A stretch of DNA of 64,000 bases, taken from the NCBI RefSeq assembly GCF_003010935.1, contig NZ_PGGN01000005.1:62001-126000 (forward strand), written 5' to 3'. Source of the stretch: Phyllobacterium endophyticum (GTDB taxonomy: Bacteria; Pseudomonadota; Alphaproteobacteria; Rhizobiales; Rhizobiaceae). The notes under the pieces were generated by a model. The model was not told where the DNA came from. It searched no databases and saw nothing but the letters and a program-made list of their open reading frames with translations. The first letter of the stretch is position 1. Each line of letters starts with the position of its first letter. Positions 13,525 through 33,617 of this stretch are shown in pieces. The translations under genes and the position numbers were made by a program.

Positions 13525-14574
13525 CTAAACCCTGAACAGGCCGCGATTGCTGAAGAGCGGAGCGCGCTCGCCAATATTGCTTGGTTCGGAGTGATACCGG
13601 CCGATGCGGGCCACCTCCCTTGCCGACCCGAAGATGAAAGGCACCCGCTGGTGCATCGTCTTCGGTGTCAGATCGAGTATCCGGCCCACCGTGTCGGTTG
13701 CGGCGCCGCCTGCCTGCTCGATAATGAACGCAATGGGGTTGGCTTCATAAATGAGGCGTATGCGGCCATCGCCATATCCCTTGCGCTTGTCGCCGGGATA
13801 GAGAAACACTCCGCTGCGCATGAGGATGCGATAGGTTTCCGCGACCAGGGAAGCGATCCAGCGCATGTTGAAATCGCGCTCGCGCGGTCCTTCCGAACCC
13901 TTGAGGCAATCATCGACATAGAGCTGCACTGCCTCGTCCCAATGGCGGTAATTGGCGGCATTGATGGCAAATTCATGGGCGCGATCAGGCACCGCAACAC
14001 TCGCGTAGGCCTGAACGAACGTGCCGAGCCGAGCGGAAAAAACAAAAACATGCGTGCCGCTGCCAAGCGTCAGGACCAAGGCAAGCTGAGGTCCGTAGAT
14101 AAAGAAGCCGGCAGCGAGCTGGCGATCGCCTTTCTGGAAAAACGATGCGCCAGGCTCGCTGTCGGGCTGGCCAACCACCGGGAGGATGGAGAAGATTGTC
14201 CCTATGGAGACATTGGTGTCTATGTTGGATGAACCGTCCAGCGGATCGATCGCCAGTGCCAGCGGTGCGCCCGGATCGAGCAGCGCGGGGTGCGCGAGTT
14301 CCTCGGATCCGTAAAGTGCAACCGGGGCCTGACGCATGGCTTCCAGGAACATGTCGTCGGCGAAGATATCCAGGTCCTTCTGAGCGTCGCCATCGGCGTT
14401 CTTGCCGCCCTGGCTGCTGGCGAATGCCTTGCCCAGCGCGCCTTGATTGATCGTGTTGCGTATCTTGACCGCAGTCAGGGAAAGCTGGCGAACCACCAGC
14501 GAGACGGCACCGCGAAGCGTTTCTCCGCTTTCTGCATAGGATCCAAGAAACGCGTCCAGGGTCGCCGTTGTCAT
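13525..14574 (-). CDS. cbbF: Class I fructose-1,6-bisphosphatase
   Basis: The 349-residue phosphatase starts MTTATLDAFLGSYAESG (ATG at 14574), preceded by CGGGAGGAAGTG. An ATG at 14631 is in frame but would place the start in the regulatory region and lacks a better ribosome-binding site. The metal-binding signature DPLDGSSNIDTN is present, with YGSEELAHP upstream and GVFLYPGDKRKGY downstream. It is the first gene of the operon and probably hydrolyses both fructose and sedoheptulose bisphosphates. Confidence 0.95.
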   Translation of the reverse strand: MTTATLDAFLGSYAESGETLRGAVSLVVRQLSLTAVKIRNTINQGALGKAFASSQGGKNADGDAQKDLDIFADDMFLEAMRQAPVALYGSEELAHPALLDPGAPLALAIDPLDGSSNIDTNVSIGTIFSILPVVGQPDSEPGASFFQKGDRQLAAGFFIYGPQLALVLTLGSGTHVFVFSARLGTFVQAYASVAVPDRAHEFAINAANYRHWDEAVQLYVDDCLKGSEGPRERDFNMRWIASLVAETYRILMRSGVFLYPGDKRKGYGDGRIRLIYEANPIAFIIEQAGGAATDTVGRILDLTPKTMHQRVPFIFGSAREVARIGRYHSEPSNIGERAPLFSNRGLFRV

Positions 14575-24255: not shown

Positions 24256-25026
24256 CTAATTCTCGCTGGTCGCCCGAGCGATCCAGGAACGCACATCAGA
24301 GGCAGATTCCAGCTTGAATTCGGCAATGCTCTCGAAGGGCGGATCGCCGACCCTGATCGAGCGTCCGCCCGCCTCCCTGGCGTAGTGGAACATGGTTTCA
24401 TCGGTCAGGTCGTCGCCAATAACCAGGAACTTCCTTCCCGCATAGGGCGCCGTTTCCATGAAATGCGCGACCGCGACGCCCTTGCTGGTTCCCGCCGGCC
24501 CGATCTCGACAACCATCTTGCCATCCTGCCGCTTCCACCCGTAGCCGAGATCCTTGACGAGGCGGTCAACCGCATGCGCGGCAGCGGTTGCTGCTTCGGG
24601 TGCCTGCCGGTAATGTACCGACAGCCCAAGACCCTTGTCTTCGATCACCATGCCGGGCCAGTGGCGGGCGAAGTCCTGCAACACAAGACGCGGGCGGTCG
24701 AGCGCTTCTGCATTGAGACCATGTCTGAGTATATCCGCGTTTTCCCTGCGGATTTCGGCGCCATGAAGGCCCGCCACGGTGAAATGGTGTGGCGCGAACA
24801 TCGTATCCACGGCGGCGATCGAACGCCCAGTGACAAGAGCGAGCGCGCCACCGACTTTCCGAGAGAGTTTCATGAGTTGATCGGGCAGATCAGGGGGAAC
24901 GACGATGCTCTCGGGGGTCGTTGCAAGATCGATGAGGGTACCATCGATGTCGATGAAAAGCGCCCAGCCGTCCAGGCTGGAAGGCAGAGGTCCATCCGCG
25001 TTGTCACATGCCGTATCAGGCTGCAT
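24256..25026 (-). CDS. otsB: Trehalose-6-phosphate phosphatase
   Basis: A 256-residue HAD-superfamily phosphatase starting MQPDTACDNADG at the ATG at 25026, with GGAAAGAG upstream; an earlier ATG at 25086 has no ribosome-binding site. The HAD motif I is FIDIDGTLIDLA (nucleophile and acid/base aspartates), motif II is in LALVTGRSI, and motif IV is VIGDDLTDETMF. It dephosphorylates trehalose 6-phosphate made by OtsA. It is divergent from otsA, unlike the otsBA operon of enterobacteria. Confidence 0.92.
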   Translation of the reverse strand: MQPDTACDNADGPLPSSLDGWALFIDIDGTLIDLATTPESIVVPPDLPDQLMKLSRKVGGALALVTGRSIAAVDTMFAPHHFTVAGLHGAEIRRENADILRHGLNAEALDRPRLVLQDFARHWPGMVIEDKGLGLSVHYRQAPEAATAAAHAVDRLVKDLGYGWKRQDGKMVVEIGPAGTSKGVAVAHFMETAPYAGRKFLVIGDDLTDETMFHYAREAGGRSIRVGDPPFESIAEFKLESASDVRSWIARATSEN

Positions 25027-25113
25027 ATCTCTTTCCTTCGATCGAGGGCACTCATCGGAAAACTCAGCGGGCGGGAAATCGTTCAACGAAAATCCAACAT
25101 CGCGGGTTTTTCT

Positions 25114-25175: not shown

Positions 25176-26579
25176 ATGGGACGGCTAGTCGTAATCTCAA
25201 ATCGCACCGCGAATTTGGGGAAGAATACGCAAATCGGTGGACTTGCTGTCGGTATCGTGGACGCGCTTAGAAAACAGGGAGGACTCTGGGCCGGGTGGGA
25301 CGGCAGCGTCGTGGACGATGCGGCGGCGGCTACAACGAAGATCCAGACCCACGGCAATGTGACCACCCTGACAACCGCACTGACAAGCGAAGAGCACGAG
25401 AAATACTATCTCGGCTTTTCCAACCGCGTGCTTTGGCCAGCCTTCCACTACCGGCTCGACCTTATGGACTACCGGATGGAATTTGCCGACAGTTATTCGG
25501 CGACGAACGAGAAGTTCGCGGAACTCATCCGCGGGCACCTGCGCGACGATGATGTGATCTGGGTGCACGACTACCATCTCATTCCGATGGCCGCCGAACT
25601 CCGCAAGCGCAATTGCAAGAACAAGATCGGCTTTTTCCTGCACATACCCTTTCCCTCGGCTGATATCTTTTCCGCGGTGCCTCGTCACGAGTGGCTGCGA
25701 TATTGCCTTTTGCAATTCGACCTGATCGGATTTCAGACGGTCAACGATGTCCATAATTTCCATCGCTATCTCAAAGAGCATTCCGACGCGGCCATTATTT
25801 CCCCAGAGGTCGTGCGCGTGAACGATCGCACCATCAATATCGGGCATTTCCCCATCGGAATCGATGTCCAGCAATTCGCCAAGGCGTCCGCGAGAACCGA
25901 CGATACGATCGAACTCGAGCGTATGCGCCGCAAGGTCCTGCAACGGTTCCAGGTCATATCCGCGGATCGGCTCGACTATTCGAAAGGACTGCCGCACCGC
26001 ATGAAGGCGTTCAGGAAATTCCTCGAAATCTGCCCGGAGTATCAAGGGCACGCGGACTATCTGCAAATAGCCTCGCCCTCCAGAGAGGATGTCACCGCCT
26101 ATTCGGATATCAAGGCTGAACTCGAACAGCTTGCAGGGGCAGTCAATGGCAGGTTCGCCGATTTCAACTGGGCACCCATACAATACATCAATCGCAATAT
26201 TCCACGCGAGAAACTCGCGCCGCTTTTCCGCTCGAGTCTCGTTGGCCTGATCACGCCCCTGCGGGACGGGATGAACCTCGTGGCCAAGGAATATATTGCA
26301 GCTCAAGACGACAAGGACCCGGGCATCCTCATTCTTTCCAAGTTCGCGGGTGCCGCCGAGGAACTCAGCGAGGCGCTGATCGTCAATCCCTATGACATCA
26401 GCGAGGTGGCAGGGGCGTTGAAAACTGCCGTCGCCATGCCGCTTGAAGAGCGTCAGTTGCGCCATCGCAAGCTCCTGAAACGCATTACGGATCATGACGC
26501 GCAATGGTGGCAGCGCCAATATCTTCAGGCGCTGCAGCGCGGCGATCAGCACCCTACCGCCAACGAACGGGTTGCATGA
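25176..26579 (+). CDS. otsA: Trehalose-6-phosphate synthase (GT20)
   Basis: The 467-residue glycosyltransferase joins UDP-glucose and glucose 6-phosphate. N-terminal LVVISNRTAN and GGLAVGIVDALRKQGG form the UDP-glucose loop. DVIWVHDYHLIPMA holds the active-site aspartate; SADRLDYSKGLPHRMKAF contains the phosphate-binding arginine and lysine; and LRDGMNLVAKEYIAAQD binds the nucleotide ribose. All key residues are present. The stop overlaps the start of the TreY-like gene, so the two are probably coupled. With OtsB it makes the osmoprotectant trehalose. Confidence 0.95.
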   Translation: MGRLVVISNRTANLGKNTQIGGLAVGIVDALRKQGGLWAGWDGSVVDDAAAATTKIQTHGNVTTLTTALTSEEHEKYYLGFSNRVLWPAFHYRLDLMDYRMEFADSYSATNEKFAELIRGHLRDDDVIWVHDYHLIPMAAELRKRNCKNKIGFFLHIPFPSADIFSAVPRHEWLRYCLLQFDLIGFQTVNDVHNFHRYLKEHSDAAIISPEVVRVNDRTINIGHFPIGIDVQQFAKASARTDDTIELERMRRKVLQRFQVISADRLDYSKGLPHRMKAFRKFLEICPEYQGHADYLQIASPSREDVTAYSDIKAELEQLAGAVNGRFADFNWAPIQYINRNIPREKLAPLFRSSLVGLITPLRDGMNLVAKEYIAAQDDKDPGILILSKFAGAAEELSEALIVNPYDISEVAGALKTAVAMPLEERQLRHRKLLKRITDHDAQWWQRQYLQALQRGDQHPTANERVA

Positions 26580-29236
26580 CGAGGATGACCACGCCCATTT
26601 CCGCCTATCGCATCCAGCTTAGAAACGGTTTGTCCTTCAGCGATATCGCCGCCATCGTGCCCTATCTGAACGATCTCGGTATCGACACGCTCACGGTATC
26701 TCCGATCTTCAGCACGATCGAGGTCAGCAGCGGCAAGAAATCCTACAATCCCACCAAGCTCGACGGCGAGGCTGGGGGTGAATACGGCTTCGCCGTCCTC
26801 GATACAGCGCTGCGGAAGCTGGGCATGGGACTTGTCGTCGATATCAATCCCAACCAGATGCCGGCGACCCATCACAATCCGTGGTGGTTCGATGTCCTGG
26901 AATGGGGATCCGAAAGCCGGTATGCCGGTCATTTCGACGTGGACTGGAAAAAGCGCCTGACCCTGCCTGTTCTTCAACGGCCGCTTGTCGAAGAAGTCCA
27001 GGCCGAAACGCTGCAACTCCACTTCCATCAGGGCAAGCTTGCCTTCGGCATCACTTACGGCGACGTGTTCTACCCACTACATCCACGGTCCTACGAAGTT
27101 GTTCTTCGCGGCGTGGGCAACGCACTATCGATTGATTTCCTTGACGCCGCGAACAAGGCGGACGCGCAGCGGTCGGAGGAATTTCATTTCCGCTTGCGCG
27201 AAATATACGAGAGCAGTGAACTCGCTCATCGTCTTGAACTTGCGGCCTGGCTGAAGGAGCTTTCGCAGGATATGGATGCAATCGACAAAGTGTTGTCGAT
27301 GCAGAAATGGCGCCTGATGACCCGCCAAAAAGCGCGCCGCCGGATGAATTACCGCCACGCGTTCGATTCAGTTCATTCGGTCGGCGTCCAGGTTGAGAAA
27401 CCCCAGCCGTTCAAGGATTTTCATGAGGTGCCGCTTGACCTGCTCGAGATCAGCCAGATCATCGGTTTCCGGGTGAATCAAATCGACGGACTGGCCGACC
27501 CCGAAGCTTATCTCCGGCAACTGCGTGCAAACGCCGGCGAGAACGCTTATCTCGTGACGGACAAGATCCTTCTGGATGGTGAAAAACACCCTGCCTTGTG
27601 GCATGCCGACGGAACGGCCGGCTATGAATTCATCTCGGCGACGGCAAATGTTCTTATCGATCATGATAAGCTTGCGGCGCTGGAAAAGCTGTACAGCGAT
27701 ATTGGCGGCCCGGGCCTCCTGCATTATCGCGGGGCGAAATCCGCCGTCCTGCACAGAAGGTTCGCTGCGGAGTTGCAGGCGCTGGTGGACCTCATCATTT
27801 CCATAGATCCGGATGCGGCTACGGGGCTCGACCTGACCCGCGCCGTGACTGACCTCGTCATAGAACTCCCGGTGTTCCGGACCTATTCCGATGGCCGCGG
27901 CGTTCTTGAACCTTACCGGTCTATCCTGCGCTCCACGATTTCAGAAATCAAAAGCCGTGCCGACGCCACTGACGCCCGCGCACTCGAATTTTTGCAGAAG
28001 ATATTGGAGACGTCCGATGGCCTGGGCGGCAAGAGGGCTCGGTCCATAACAAAGTTTCAGCAATTGACCGCTGCTGTCATGGCCCAGGCGATCGAGCAAT
28101 CCCACCGCTATGGGCGCGGTCCCATCGCTCTCGACGAGGTCATCCTGCACGGAGCCGATTCAGGCGACCCCGTCCAGGCTTTCCATGACAAGATGCTCAA
28201 CAAGGCTGCCGCGGCGCCAAGGGGCATGCTGGCGACGACATTCTCCTATACGACCAAATTCGGCGAGGACGCCAGGATGCGGCTCCTCGCTCTGTCCGAA
28301 GCCCCGGAGCCATGGTGCGAAGCCGTCCTCCGGTGGCGTCAAAAGCATGCCCAGCATGTGGCGACCATCGAGGAGACACCGGCGCCCGATCCCCAGACGG
28401 AATGGCTCATCTTTCAGACCCTCGCCGCGATCTGGCCCTTGACGCTGCCGCTTGACGATGAGACCGGACTGAACGCGGTACGTGAAGATCTTTCGGTGTT
28501 TATCCAGAAGGCGATCAGCGAAATCCAGAGGGATGCATTCTGGACAGAGATAAACAGGCCATACGAACTGGCAGTGATGGACTATATAAACCAGCTTTTC
28601 GCCGACCGTTCCTTCCTTCAGGATTTCGTCGAGACCATGCGTCCCTTCTGGGTGGCCGGGGCAATCAACAGTTTTTCACAAACGGTGCTCAAAGCCACAG
28701 CACCCGGAGTGGCCGTAGTTTATAATGGCGCCGAATGCTGGGATTTCGGAGTGTCCAACATCCCCGCATCGACCGACGTGAACTTCGAAGCGCTGGCCAC
28801 CCGCCTCTCCTATGCGGACCAGTCGCCGTTGAACATATTGCTAGAGGATTGGCACACGGGCGCGATAAAACAGCGGCTTGTTTCGACACACTTGCGGGCT
28901 CGAAAACGCAAACCCGGCCTGTTTACCGGCGGCGAGTATGTGCCCCTGAAAGTGACCGGCAAGAAACGGAGAAATGTCATTGCCTTCCTGAGGAAGGACG
29001 GCAGCGACGTTTGCATGGTCGCAGTGCCCAGGCATCCGTTCGACGCTGTGAGGCGATTCAACACGCCATTCATGCCGATCCCCGGCTGGGGTGACACCGC
29101 TATCCAGGTCCCCCAGGAGATCAGAGGGCTGGAACTACAGGACCTCATGACAGGAAATAGAACAATCCTTGCTGACAAGTGCCTTATCGCCGATGCGATG
29201 CGCGGATTTTCAACGGTTTCGCTGATGACGGACTAG
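26576..29236 (+). CDS. TreY-like GH13 protein with substituted catalytic residues (probable pseudoenzyme)
   Basis: The 886-residue protein is homologous to maltooligosyltrehalose synthase (TreY) over its length: YRIQLRNGLSFSDI, NPWWFDVLEWGSESRYAG, GFRVNQIDGLADPEAYL, LEDWHTGAIKQRLV and a C-terminal domain ending VSLMTD. The GH13 catalytic positions are changed. Region I reads DINPNQM (usual DIVPNH; Q94). The nucleophile position in GFRVNQ is Asn301 instead of Asp, followed by Gln for His. The acid/base position in LVTDKILL is Asp329 instead of the Glu of VEKIL. The usual VDPDNRRPVDF is replaced by VSNIPASTDVNF. The start is the ATG overlapping the otsA stop; an ATG at 26585 is an alternative. 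No TreZ gene is nearby. A glucan-binding, regulatory or altered catalytic role is possible. Confidence 0.8.
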   Translation: MTRMTTPISAYRIQLRNGLSFSDIAAIVPYLNDLGIDTLTVSPIFSTIEVSSGKKSYNPTKLDGEAGGEYGFAVLDTALRKLGMGLVVDINPNQMPATHHNPWWFDVLEWGSESRYAGHFDVDWKKRLTLPVLQRPLVEEVQAETLQLHFHQGKLAFGITYGDVFYPLHPRSYEVVLRGVGNALSIDFLDAANKADAQRSEEFHFRLREIYESSELAHRLELAAWLKELSQDMDAIDKVLSMQKWRLMTRQKARRRMNYRHAFDSVHSVGVQVEKPQPFKDFHEVPLDLLEISQIIGFRVNQIDGLADPEAYLRQLRANAGENAYLVTDKILLDGEKHPALWHADGTAGYEFISATANVLIDHDKLAALEKLYSDIGGPGLLHYRGAKSAVLHRRFAAELQALVDLIISIDPDAATGLDLTRAVTDLVIELPVFRTYSDGRGVLEPYRSILRSTISEIKSRADATDARALEFLQKILETSDGLGGKRARSITKFQQLTAAVMAQAIEQSHRYGRGPIALDEVILHGADSGDPVQAFHDKMLNKAAAAPRGMLATTFSYTTKFGEDARMRLLALSEAPEPWCEAVLRWRQKHAQHVATIEETPAPDPQTEWLIFQTLAAIWPLTLPLDDETGLNAVREDLSVFIQKAISEIQRDAFWTEINRPYELAVMDYINQLFADRSFLQDFVETMRPFWVAGAINSFSQTVLKATAPGVAVVYNGAECWDFGVSNIPASTDVNFEALATRLSYADQSPLNILLEDWHTGAIKQRLVSTHLRARKRKPGLFTGGEYVPLKVTGKKRRNVIAFLRKDGSDVCMVAVPRHPFDAVRRFNTPFMPIPGWGDTAIQVPQEIRGLELQDLMTGNRTILADKCLIADAMRGFSTVSLMTD

Positions 29237-30987
29237 GTCGCGTCCAGGGCCTGATTGCGCTTCCTGCGCGAAACGTTTCTCGCCTTGCGTTCCTTGGCCA
29301 TGTCGCTGACGGCAGCCAGGAGCGCAGGATGTTTGGCCATGAACACATTGAAATCGCGGCGCTCTAAAACCAGGAAATGGCAAAAATCAACAGCAATGAC
29401 GTCGGCCGTGCGTCTGCCACCGCTCAGCAGAGCCATTTCGCCGAAAAATGCGCCCGCCTCGAGCCGGATCGATTCGTTCTCCAGTCGGACCTCGACGGCG
29501 CCGGATGAGATGAAGTACATGCCGTCGACACGATCTCCGATACGGATGACGCGCTCGCCCGGCGACGCCACCTTGGGCCGGAACAGGAGCAGGAGTTCTT
29601 CCTGGGAATTCTCGTTCACCTGCGCAAACATCGGGAAGGTTTCTATCAGTTGCTGCATTTCCAGCTGATGCTGCCTGTTCCTGTCATCGCTGATCTTCCG
29701 GATCCTTGCCAGCTCGCGGCAAAGTGCATCGTGCTTCTGCTGGCCATAATTGGCGGAAAGGGATGGATATTTGCTGTGGATTGCCTTTTGCAGCCAATCT
29801 CCCGCGAGCAGAACGAGCGGGTTCACAGTGATCGACAGGATGGCGCCGGCAAGAATGAGATCCTGCCCCTCGCGCGGCAACAGGCCGAGCGAAACGCCGA
29901 GACCTGCCAGGATAAACGAGAACTCGCCGATCTGCGCCAGTCCGGCAGCGACAGAAAGGCCCATGGCGATGGGATAGCGCAGCAGCACCACTATCAGGAA
30001 CGCGATTATCGATTTGCCGAAGATGATCAGCGCGAGCACGCCGGCAACGGCAAGCGGTTCGCGAATGATGACATAGGGATCGAAAAGCATGCCGACCGAA
30101 ACGAAAAACAGCACGGCGAAGGCATTTTGCAAAGGCAGGGAGTCGGCCGCGGCACGATGACTGAGGTGCGATTCGCTCATGACCACACCCGCAAAAAACG
30201 CACCGAGTGCAAAGGATACGCCGAAGATTTCCGCGGAGCCGAAGGCGATACCGAGCGCAACGGCAAGAACAGAAAGCGTGAACAATTCCGGTGACCCGGT
30301 CCGCGCCACCAATGTCAGTATCCACGGAACGACTTTCGGACCAAAGAATATCGCCATGACCGTGAAGGCGCCAACTTTGAGCAGGGTCACTGCTATGGTC
30401 AAAGCGATCGCGAGGCCTCCCGCAGCTTCGGCTCCCGCAGCCGTGGCATCGACATGACCGCCCAGAACGCCGGAAAATGCGGGCAACAGCACAAGAGCCA
30501 GCACCATCGCCAGATCCTCGACGATGAGCCATCCCACCGTGACACGACCATTTACGGAGTCGACCTGATTATGCTCCTCGAGCGCCTTGAGAAGCACGAC
30601 AGTACTGGCGACCGACAGGCTGAGACCAAATACGATCCCGGCCCCAAGCCCCCAGCCCCATAGTGAGGTGAGGCCGATGCCAAGCAGGGTTGCAAGCAGG
30701 ATGCGCCCCAGTGCGCCCGGGACCGCCACCCCTCGGACCGCGAGCAAATCAGACGCGGAAAAATGCAGGCCTACGCCAAACATCAACAGGATGACGCCCA
30801 TCTCGGCAAGCTGGGATGCGAGATCGCTGTCCGCTACAACACCAGGTGTATAGGGTCCCATCACGATACCGGCGACAAGATATCCGACCAGCGGCGGCAA
30901 GCGCAGACGATCGGCCGCGTAGCCGAAGACGGCGGCAAACACGAAGCCGAGGGCAACCGTCGCTAAGAGTGAGACCTCTTGATGCAC
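29233..30987 (-). CDS. CPA2 cation:proton antiporter with C-terminal cyclic-nucleotide-binding domain
   Basis: A 584-residue transporter starting at a GTG (VHQEVSLLATVALG) with GGAAAGAGA upstream; the open frame runs further to a TTG without a better site. About 12-13 helices form a KefB/YbaL-like exchanger (LPPLVGYLVAGIVMGPYTPG, GLSLSVASTVVLLKALEE, GWLIVEDLAMVLAL). Instead of the usual TrkA-N NAD-binding domain, the C-terminus (about 450-560) is a CRP-type cNMP-binding fold: FPMFAQVNENSQEELLLLF, GMYFISSGAVEV, and FGEMALLSGGRRTADV with the phosphate-binding Glu and Arg. It probably exchanges K+ or Na+ for H+ under cyclic-nucleotide control. Its stop shares CTAG with the convergent TreY-like stop. 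Confidence 0.85.
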   Translation of the reverse strand: MHQEVSLLATVALGFVFAAVFGYAADRLRLPPLVGYLVAGIVMGPYTPGVVADSDLASQLAEMGVILLMFGVGLHFSASDLLAVRGVAVPGALGRILLATLLGIGLTSLWGWGLGAGIVFGLSLSVASTVVLLKALEEHNQVDSVNGRVTVGWLIVEDLAMVLALVLLPAFSGVLGGHVDATAAGAEAAGGLAIALTIAVTLLKVGAFTVMAIFFGPKVVPWILTLVARTGSPELFTLSVLAVALGIAFGSAEIFGVSFALGAFFAGVVMSESHLSHRAAADSLPLQNAFAVLFFVSVGMLFDPYVIIREPLAVAGVLALIIFGKSIIAFLIVVLLRYPIAMGLSVAAGLAQIGEFSFILAGLGVSLGLLPREGQDLILAGAILSITVNPLVLLAGDWLQKAIHSKYPSLSANYGQQKHDALCRELARIRKISDDRNRQHQLEMQQLIETFPMFAQVNENSQEELLLLFRPKVASPGERVIRIGDRVDGMYFISSGAVEVRLENESIRLEAGAFFGEMALLSGGRRTADVIAVDFCHFLVLERRDFNVFMAKHPALLAAVSDMAKERKARNVSRRKRNQALDAT

Positions 30988-31180
30988 GTTTCTCTTTCCA
31001 TGAATTTTCGCAAAGCCAAGCGGTTTTACAAAAGGTCGATCTGCTGGAAATTGCAATAGATCGTTCGATTATCCGTTCAAACCACACACTTGCAACTGTT
31101 CACACCTAAATATCATCCAAGACTGGAAAAGCTCATCTTCATCTCGGTGCCGAACGTGGCAAGCGAAGCTAAAGCCTAAT

Positions 31181-32072: not shown

Positions 32073-33617
32073 GTGAAAATCGGGGATCTCAAAGGCAAAC
32101 TTATCGTATCCTGCCAGCCCGTGCCGGGCGGTCCAATGGACGATGCCAGGATGGTGACGGCATTTGCCCTGGCAGCGGTTGCCGGTGGTGCCAGCGCGCT
32201 TAGAATAGAATCCCTTGATTATGTGCGTGCGGTCCGCGCCGCGACCGATGTGCCGATCATCGGGATCGTCAAGAAGGACCTTGAGACATCGCCGGTTCGG
32301 ATCACGCCGCATGTAGCGGACGCGGTCGCCCTGGCGAGGGCCGGCGCGCAAATCGTGGCGTTCGATGCGACGCTGCGTTCGCGCCCGGATACAATTGCGA
32401 ATATCATAGCGGCCATTCACGCGAATGGCGCATTGGCGATGGCGGATTGCTCGTCGGTCGAGGATGGCCTTGCGGCTCTCAAGGCCGGCGCCGACTGCGT
32501 TGGATCGACTCTCTCCGGTTACACGGGCGGCCCCGTGCCTGACGAACCCGACTTCGACCTGATTACGCAGCTGCACGATCTTACCCCCCATGTAATCGCG
32601 GAGGGCCGTATCAGAACACCGGAGCAGGCAATCGTAGCGTTGCGCCGGGGTGCATCCAGTGTCGTGGTCGGCTCGGCAATCACCCGTACCGAACATGTCA
32701 CCTCATGGTTTAAACAGGCAATCGCTGCAGAAACTGCGAATAAAGCCAGCAAGGGCGTGCTCGCGATCGACATCGGCGGTACCAAGACGCTGGCCTGTCT
32801 GGTCAAGGACGGCAAGATCGCGAGGGAGCTGCATTTCCCAACTGATCACACGCTTGGGCCCGACGGCTGGGTTGAAGCTGTCGCCGCGACGACCTTGGGC
32901 TGGAAAGGCTTGTATGACCGGGTGGCGGCTGCGGTGACCGGCATCGTCGTGGATGGCCATTGGGCAGCGTTGAACCCGGCGACGCTCAAACTTCCTGCAA
33001 GTTATGCACTCGCCGACAAGTTGCGCGACACGTTCGGCGTGTCGGCTACGGCATTCAACGACGCGCAAAGCGCAGCCTGGGGCGAGCACCGCTTTGGCGC
33101 CGGTGCTCGCGAGGACATGGTGTTCCTCACCATCTCGACGGGCATCGGCGGCGGCATCGTCCTCAACGGCCGGCTCCTGCAGGGTACTGCCGGTCATTTC
33201 GGCCTGTTCCAGGGCTATTTCGAATGCTCAAACCGGCCGTTGGAAGACAGCGTTTCTGGCCACTGGATGAACGGAGAAGCCCGCAAGGCCGGATTCGATT
33301 TGGAGGCCCGGGAGATTTTCGCGGCAGCACGATCGGGCGCTCCATGGGCATCGCACATCATTTCGATCTCGGCCAAGCGCGCGGCGATGCTTTGCCAGAA
33401 CATCCAGCTGGCGCTCGATCCCAGACGCATCATTATCGGAGGCGGCATTGGCCTTGCCGAAGGTTATATCGACCAAGTACGCAGTGCATTCACCTTTCCC
33501 GCCTTGTCGCTTCGCCCCACCCTTGTGCCTGCCGGTCTCGGCCGCCACGCAGGTGTGATCGGCGCAGCGGATCTAGTTGCACAGTCCCGCTCAATCCCTG
33601 GAGGCTATAATGCTTAG
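32073..33617 (+). CDS. Bifunctional N-acetylmannosamine-6-phosphate 2-epimerase / ROK kinase (NanE-NanK fusion)
   Basis: A 514-residue fusion. Residues 1-225 are a NanE-type TIM barrel (LIVSCQPVPGGPMDD, IIGIVKKDLE with the catalytic lysine, HVIAEGRIRTPEQA with the catalytic glutamate, VVVGSAITR). Residues about 230-505 are a ROK sugar kinase: LAIDIGGTKTLACLV phosphate loop, TAFNDAQSAAWGE with the catalytic aspartate, and ISTGIGGGIVLNG. The usual ROK zinc motif (GHxxx..CxCGxxGCxE) is replaced by GHFGLFQGYFECSNRPLED, leaving one cysteine. The predicted route is ManNAc to ManNAc-6-P to GlcNAc-6-P. The kinase substrate is inferred from the fusion. Confidence 0.87.
   Translation: MKIGDLKGKLIVSCQPVPGGPMDDARMVTAFALAAVAGGASALRIESLDYVRAVRAATDVPIIGIVKKDLETSPVRITPHVADAVALARAGAQIVAFDATLRSRPDTIANIIAAIHANGALAMADCSSVEDGLAALKAGADCVGSTLSGYTGGPVPDEPDFDLITQLHDLTPHVIAEGRIRTPEQAIVALRRGASSVVVGSAITRTEHVTSWFKQAIAAETANKASKGVLAIDIGGTKTLACLVKDGKIARELHFPTDHTLGPDGWVEAVAATTLGWKGLYDRVAAAVTGIVVDGHWAALNPATLKLPASYALADKLRDTFGVSATAFNDAQSAAWGEHRFGAGAREDMVFLTISTGIGGGIVLNGRLLQGTAGHFGLFQGYFECSNRPLEDSVSGHWMNGEARKAGFDLEAREIFAAARSGAPWASHIISISAKRAAMLCQNIQLALDPRRIIIGGGIGLAEGYIDQVRSAFTFPALSLRPTLVPAGLGRHAGVIGAADLVAQSRSIPGGYNA

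Follow-up and report, generated by a model that had tools for sequence, protein, structure and literature searches.

Loss of catalysis within the GH13 fold has been described for the plant isoamylase paralogue ISA2, which lacks the nucleophile and other catalytic residues across its lineage and has been kept by selection; it reportedly pairs with ISA1, its paralogue, and models of the complexes contain glucan sites (PMC12510319). In trehalose synthesis, yeast Tsl1 and Tps3 are referred to as putative regulatory proteins (PMC9635654), and passages of a review describe TreY (maltooligosyltrehalose synthase) only in its active form, as the enzyme of that name in the TreYZ route (PMC11046441). Here we analyse a 64,000-nucleotide stretch of a Phyllobacterium endophyticum contig (NZ_PGGN01000005.1, positions 62,001 to 126,000; hereafter the window, meaning the whole stretch), in which the gene directly 3′ of otsA, the trehalose-6-phosphate synthase gene, encodes a protein that is homologous to TreY over its full length, with three catalytic acids replaced. 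Judged from its sequence, this protein has almost certainly lost TreY catalysis, and it is best read as a TreY paralogue kept for another purpose, a GH13-fold pseudoenzyme whose partner, given the linkage of the two genes, is probably OtsA. Routes to trehalose, a stress sugar, include OtsAB, and TreYZ, which starts from glycogen.

The open reading frame (26576 to 29236, forward strand) runs for 886 residues with no internal stop, and its product matches the TreY model TIGR02401 over residues 7 to 881 at 599.4 bits, above the cut-off of 498.65; the solved TreY chains (PDB 1iv8, 6lcu, 3hje and 5zcr) are also matched, the best with an E value of 8.7e-54. A preliminary description of this DNA had called the frame intact and the product TreY-like from end to end, and both statements hold. 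The homologues found in the genus, 13 sequences that form one clade (see below), all match TIGR02401 at E ≤ 1e-5, the score having been compared with the cut-off for the window protein, and we set these 13 against 50 canonical TreY proteins, to which the window protein is 30 to 38% identical (blastp). Residues D228, E255 and D443 of 1iv8, numbered by alignment, are those that we take to be the catalytic Asp, Glu and Asp of TreY. The position of the Asp nucleophile (D228) is Asn in 13/13 clade members and Asp in 50/50 canonical proteins; that of the Glu acid/base (E255) is Asp in 13/13 and Glu in 50/50; and that of the transition-state Asp in the region IV THD motif (D443) is Thr in seven clade members and Ala in six, and Asp in all 50 canonical proteins. 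The neighbouring position 558 is His throughout the canonical set and Tyr in 12 of the 13 clade members (His in the other), and the canonical THDTKRGED reads SYTTKFGED in the window protein. With 13/13 homologues lacking the three acids and 50/50 canonical proteins having them, the replacement is not a matter of chance.

These counts revise the earlier picture in part. The motifs that it had listed (DINPNQM, GFRVNQ with N301, VTDKIL with D329, and VSNIPASTDVNF) are all present in the window protein, and the loss of all three GH13 catalytic acids stands; the third acid, however, belongs to region IV (Y558, T559) and not to VDPDNRRPVDF, a motif that is lost as well. Because the region IV His-Asp pair is replaced by Tyr558-Thr559, the loss of catalytic residues is more complete than had been seen. 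The change claimed for region I does not affect its Asp, which is kept (D89), but does affect the His at position 94, which is now Gln; in the clade this position is Gln in 11 members, His in one and Arg in one, against His in 50/50 canonical proteins, and N91 is found in 13/13 where the canonical residue is Val in 50/50. More broadly, 132 columns are at least 96% conserved among the 50 canonical proteins, and the clade keeps 70 of these (canonical residue in at least 12 of the 13), has lost 44 (in at most one) and is mixed at 18. Many of the lost columns lie in motifs that line the GH13/TreY active site; given as canonical letters with window protein numbers, these are H38, Y40, S51-H52, Y54-D55, H94, D301-H302, E329 and T348, and further K504, D508, R513, T557-H558-D559, R562, D714 and VDPDN at 727-731. 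By this alignment most of the residues of the -1 subsite are gone along with the catalytic acids. That the protein is still a maltooligosyltrehalose synthase, with other residues catalysing, is hardly credible: its score exceeds the TIGR02401 cut-off and NCBI labels an orthologue treY, but the three acids are replaced in every clade member, and TreZ is found over its cut-off in only two of the 13 carriers.

The 13 carriers were found among 20 genomes of the genus Phyllobacterium, one of which is 88% complete, and none of the 13 genes has an internal stop. In a quick tree the 13 sequences make up one side of a branch with a Shimodaira-Hasegawa-like approximate likelihood ratio test (SH-aLRT) support of 100, its stem being 0.93 changes per column long, so that a monophyletic, otsA-linked clade with common Asn and Asp substitutions, which the preliminary description had envisaged, does exist and takes in all 13 members. 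Repeated or other-gene loci were dropped from the tree and motif counts (L016-L019, L062, L063, L067, L090, L091, L094, L077-L089 and L047-L061). By Nei-Gojobori counting, the ratio of nonsynonymous to synonymous change (dN/dS) is 0.059 to 0.080 in ten of ten pairs among five close members, compared with 0.030 to 0.072 for otsA in the same ten pairs and 0.077 to 0.238 in ten pairs of canonical TreY, an eleventh being saturated; more distant TreY-like pairs give 0.092 to 0.143 where dS can be computed, values on which we do not rely as dS there is above 1. The TreY-like gene is under strong purifying selection, as the earlier argument for selected function rather than decay had it, and its product evolves faster than that of otsA. 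The loss of catalytic residues is fixed across the clade under this selection, the pattern by which a pseudoenzyme is recognized, and as far as the sequences show, neither the usual Asp/Glu/Asp elsewhere in the fold nor erratic, unselected change was seen. A decaying pseudogene, or a hitchhiker in the otsA operon, might be suspected from the faster evolution of the protein and from the lack of the gene beside one otsA of this type (genome G008), but is extremely improbable, as internal stops are lacking in 13/13, the close-pair dN/dS is no higher than in pairs of canonical TreY, and all 13 members carry one and the same residue at 66 of the 70 canonical columns that the clade keeps.

The clade, from soil and root bacteria, appears confined to the genus in the collections that we searched. 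With the window protein as query, no further member was found by score in 247 genomes of the family, and profile searches of overlapping sets, comprising 397 genomes of the order (E ≤ 1e-30), 394 of the family (E ≤ 1e-180), 289 of the class and 299 of the phylum (both E ≤ 1e-150), likewise yielded none by score; the top match outside the genus reaches 730 bits, whereas six clade members among the matches listed have 1390 bits or more. Plasmid records contain 342 with a match, one of them, a Phyllobacterium, at 60% identity or more and 341 below 60%, the best of the latter among 30 listed being 37% identical, and no relatives were found among viral contigs. Among the matches, motifs were read in the 50 distinct canonical homologues, so that an independent loss elsewhere may have escaped notice. 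An orthologue in P. zundukense (NZ_CP104969.1, 213663-216317; L150; 76% identical) is labelled treY, malto-oligosyltrehalose synthase, by NCBI, a label that is probably a wrong transfer, because in G019 the orthologue at the corresponding position lacks the catalytic acids.

The metabolic setting also speaks against glycogen-linked functions. TreZ (TIGR02402) and GlgB (TIGR01515) are found above their cut-offs in two of the 20 genomes, G000 and G009; the same two, both of which carry the TreY-like gene, have a canonical TreY. The other 11 of the 13 carriers have neither a canonical TreY nor TreZ or GlgB over the model cut-offs, although G014 has a single weak partial match to each of TreZ and GlgB. 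Across the genus, 18 of the 20 genomes have neither GlgB nor TreZ over cut-off, and glycogen metabolism thus seems mostly absent from Phyllobacterium, as far as these models can tell. The genome of the window itself has a canonical GlgB-GlgX-TreZ-MalQ-TreY cluster on another contig; the earlier remark that no TreZ lies near the TreY-like gene is therefore right, though the same genome has TreZ beside canonical TreY elsewhere. Because 11 of 13 carriers lack both TreZ and GlgB over cut-off, a glycogen-linked role shared by the clade, whether TreY chemistry or glycogen binding, is unlikely. A scaffold that binds glucan and so anchors OtsA to glycogen or maltodextrin would suit the full-length TreY-like sequence and has a precedent in ISA2, a GH13 paralogue without catalysis that contributes glucan sites, known from models, to ISA1/ISA2 complexes (PMC12510319). 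We nevertheless regard it as improbable, as the active-site loops are lost or relaxed and 11 of the 13 carriers have no GlgB over cut-off, though imported glucans might serve instead. The proposal of glucan binding made in the preliminary description is not supported, given the relaxation of loops 44-58 and 725-739, the loss of 44 of 132 canonical columns, many of them in active-site motifs, and the scarcity of GlgB; its suggestion of a partner of OtsA is the best reading.

Several lines of evidence link the TreY-like protein to OtsA. First, otsA lies directly 5′ of the TreY-like gene in 13/13 carriers; both genes are missing from six of the 20 genomes, otsA of this type occurs alone in one, and no genome of the 20 has the TreY-like gene without otsA. 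On its other side the TreY-like gene has different neighbors in the divergent genomes, as judged by eye. The ATGA overlap with otsA noted earlier is present in the window; in P. zundukense, NCBI places the start of the orthologue 5 bases past the otsA stop, equivalent here to M4, and with either start the two genes are still adjacent. Second, otsB is divergent from otsA in all 13 carriers and in G008. Among 28 OtsA loci in other genera of the family, an otsB match was found in 20, upstream on the same strand in 18, the exceptions being L138 (downstream, opposite strand) and L143 (downstream, same strand); compared with these genera, Phyllobacterium has otsA divergent from otsB and the TreY-like gene 3′ of otsA instead. 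Third, the OtsA and TreY-like trees concur on three main groups, of which the rpoB tree recovers one, made up of G000 and its five close relatives. The remaining two fail the approximately unbiased (AU) test on rpoB (p-AU 0.00024 for G002, G010, G011 and G018; a weak 0.039 for G005, G012 and G014), and a grouping of G010 with G014, suggested by rpoB, is rejected by both genes (p-AU 4.6e-43 and 9.2e-53); we note that the base make-up of G014 rpoB is unusual and that the placement of G010 in the TreY-like tree carries a long-branch flag. From this agreement, and its partial conflict with rpoB, the pair looks to have been inherited or transferred as a unit.

The presumed partner is a GT20 trehalose-6-phosphate synthase. 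The product of the window otsA scores 547.9 bits against TIGR02400, slightly below the cut-off of 564.85, and 422.4 bits against PF00982; residues 1 to 454 of 467, almost end to end, align with the solved OtsA chain 5v0t_A (E value 1.6e-130), and the substrate-binding motifs appear intact by eye. A second otsA of the genus is present in G002 (G002:C37:12752-14119; L061, L089), 53% identical and with a co-directional otsB-like frame upstream, on a contig that ends at 14473.

To see where constraint has moved, we took nine clade representatives with a mean identity of 0.510 and set them against nine canonical TreY proteins picked from 3,000 random draws so as to match that value (0.511); this is a single matched set, and the comparison is descriptive. 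Averaged over 840 columns, entropy does not differ between the two sets (1.17 and 1.17). The eight windows of columns that lose most constraint are 725-739 (the former VDPDNRRP loop), 44-58 (the former SHGYD loop), 250-264, 266-280, 10-24, 454-493, 74-88 and 368-382, and the eight that gain most are 744-760, 816-836, 617-631, 870-885, 130-144, 654-668, 691-705 and 219-235; by this comparison, constraint has left two active-site loops and has risen elsewhere, mostly beyond residue 617. An AlphaFold2 run on the window protein with four homologues gave a mean pLDDT of 34.7 and a pTM of 0.27.

From these observations we favor, with some reserve, a non-catalytic role related to OtsA, as partner or regulator. 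The TreY-like protein would be translated together with OtsA and would act on it as a non-catalytic subunit, whether as a stabilizer, an allosteric regulator or a sensor. The GH13 barrel would serve as a scaffold, with the former substrate loops free to vary and new contacts carried by segments mostly beyond residue 617; more speculatively, the remodelled pocket could bind a small ligand that tunes this action on OtsA.

A number of observations weigh against such a partnership. The 13 genes are not 13 independent events, since six are close relatives. In G008, one genome in 20, otsA of this type occurs with no TreY-like gene, so OtsA can manage alone; a tblastn search found no remnant beside that otsA (best E value 0.048, which we regard as chance). 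The locus in question (L077; G008:C5:34000-48000), with otsA and a divergent otsB, is a natural partnerless case. Nor is there a clear signal of a co-evolving interface on OtsA when G008 is compared with partnered proteins by leave-one-out in six genomes: at otherwise invariant positions the partnerless G008 deviates at nine, and partnered G010 at ten, G014 at eight, G018 at five, G005 at two and G000 at one (L129, with one internal TGA, was left out, and L061 was placed with the 28 comparison rows). The lack of a clear interface signal and the occurrence of the G008 OtsA by itself would both suit a role unrelated to OtsA, for example as a regulator or chaperone of another process that shares the operon, but we consider this rather unlikely, with otsA adjacent in 13/13 whereas the neighbor on the other side differs among divergent genomes.

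The pocket itself supplies the remaining objections. The invariance of N301 and D329 in 13/13, together with the mild excess of conservation that the 44 lost columns show over variable columns within the clade (permutation 0.029), could mean a working pocket; the clade-specific acids D37 and D520 are likewise invariant in 13/13. In all, 24 residues are invariant in the clade yet occur in no more than 10% of the canonical proteins; they include the acids D37, D329 and D520, and also N91, N301, A348, S557 and F562. Given these residues and the mild conservation of the lost columns, the pocket may in part have been remade and not merely released. An enzyme with new chemistry, whose substrate would be a small sugar or a sugar phosphate from the OtsAB pathway and whose active residues would be N301, D329, the invariant D37 and D520 and the retained R299, would suit the 24 residues and the most conserved 15-column window of the clade, TKFGEDARMRLLALS at 560-574, which abuts the lost catalytic Asp. 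It is quite unlikely, however, as constraint is relaxed in loops 44-58 and 725-739 of the active site, the clade varies at the positions of canonical H52, Y54 and H302, and we know of no GH13 chemistry that uses Asn and Asp as this clade would. A broader version, in which a rebuilt site (invariant N91, N301, D329, D37, D520 and F562) acts on the product or substrate of OtsA, either as a new-chemistry enzyme or as a ligand-sensing subunit that gates the GT20 synthase, is a possibility that we hold to be doubtful; it would amount to a merger of two normally separate trehalose pathways, an enzyme of one having become the controller of the other.

The features of the locus are collected in Table 1. 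On the far side of the TreY-like gene, the window encodes a CPA2/YbaL-type cation:proton antiporter (29233-31056, reverse strand) with a C-terminal part that by eye resembles a cyclic-nucleotide-binding domain; this gene adjoins the trehalose genes in the window and in loci L087 and L088. Further along, a single frame (32073-33617, forward strand) fuses an N-acetylmannosamine-6-phosphate 2-epimerase (residues 5-218) to an N-acetylmannosamine kinase (229-504).

Table 1. Coordinates of the trehalose genes in the window and of positions discussed in the TreY-like protein
Feature	Position	Strand	Remarks
otsB, trehalose-6-phosphate phosphatase	24256..25086	-	TIGR00685 148.6 bits, cut-off 68.05; divergent from otsA
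otsA, trehalose-6-phosphate synthase (GT20)	25176..26579	+	TIGR02400, PF00982, solved OtsA chain 5v0t_A
ATGA overlap, otsA stop / TreY-like start	26576..26579	+	
Putative TreY-like pseudoenzyme gene	26576..29236	+	886 aa; alternative start 26585
Region I, N91-P-N-Q94 (canonical V-P-N-H)	26846..26857	+	column counts against 50 canonical TreY
N301 codon, at canonical Asp nucleophile	27476..27478	+	N 13/13; D 50/50 canonical
D329 codon, at canonical Glu acid/base	27560..27562	+	D 13/13; E 50/50 canonical
Y558-T559 codons, at canonical region IV His-Asp (transition-state Asp)	28247..28252	+	HD 50/50 canonical
Former VDPDNRRP loop, residues 725-739, relaxed	28748..28792	+	
Residues 744-885	28805..29230	+	three of eight top-gaining windows (744-760, 816-836, 870-885)

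If the partnership with OtsA is real, a TreY-derived protein would be serving OtsAB in genomes that mostly lack the glycogen route. The clade would also offer a natural test of the passage from enzyme to regulator, with the same operon, 13 diverged copies, a partnerless case in G008 and two genomes that also have a canonical TreY. There is a consequence for databases as well, in that the window protein passes the TreY equivalog model and the P. zundukense orthologue is labelled treY; with such labels, pathway reconstructions would credit carriers with part of a TreYZ pathway that is seemingly missing in 11 of the 13. In the open-licence literature, searched by titles and the beginnings of abstracts, we found no inactive TreY and no TreY-OtsA partnership, which is weak evidence of absence, and, among the papers listed, no GH13-fold partner of a GT20 synthase.

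Compared with the systems described at the outset, the TreY-like protein shares full-length homology with TreY (TIGR02401 and the four solved chains) and differs from it in that the clade has its three catalytic acids replaced and is paired with otsA rather than with treZ. Like ISA2, it appears to be a GH13 paralogue maintained by selection after the loss of catalytic residues; unlike ISA2, whose partner is the paralogue ISA1, its presumed partner is a GT20 enzyme, and the glycogen pathway is mostly absent. With Tsl1 and Tps3 it would share the part of a presumed non-catalytic partner in the trehalose-6-phosphate pathway. The architecture of Tsl1 and Tps3 is of the GT20/phosphatase type, whereas that of the TreY-like protein is GH13.

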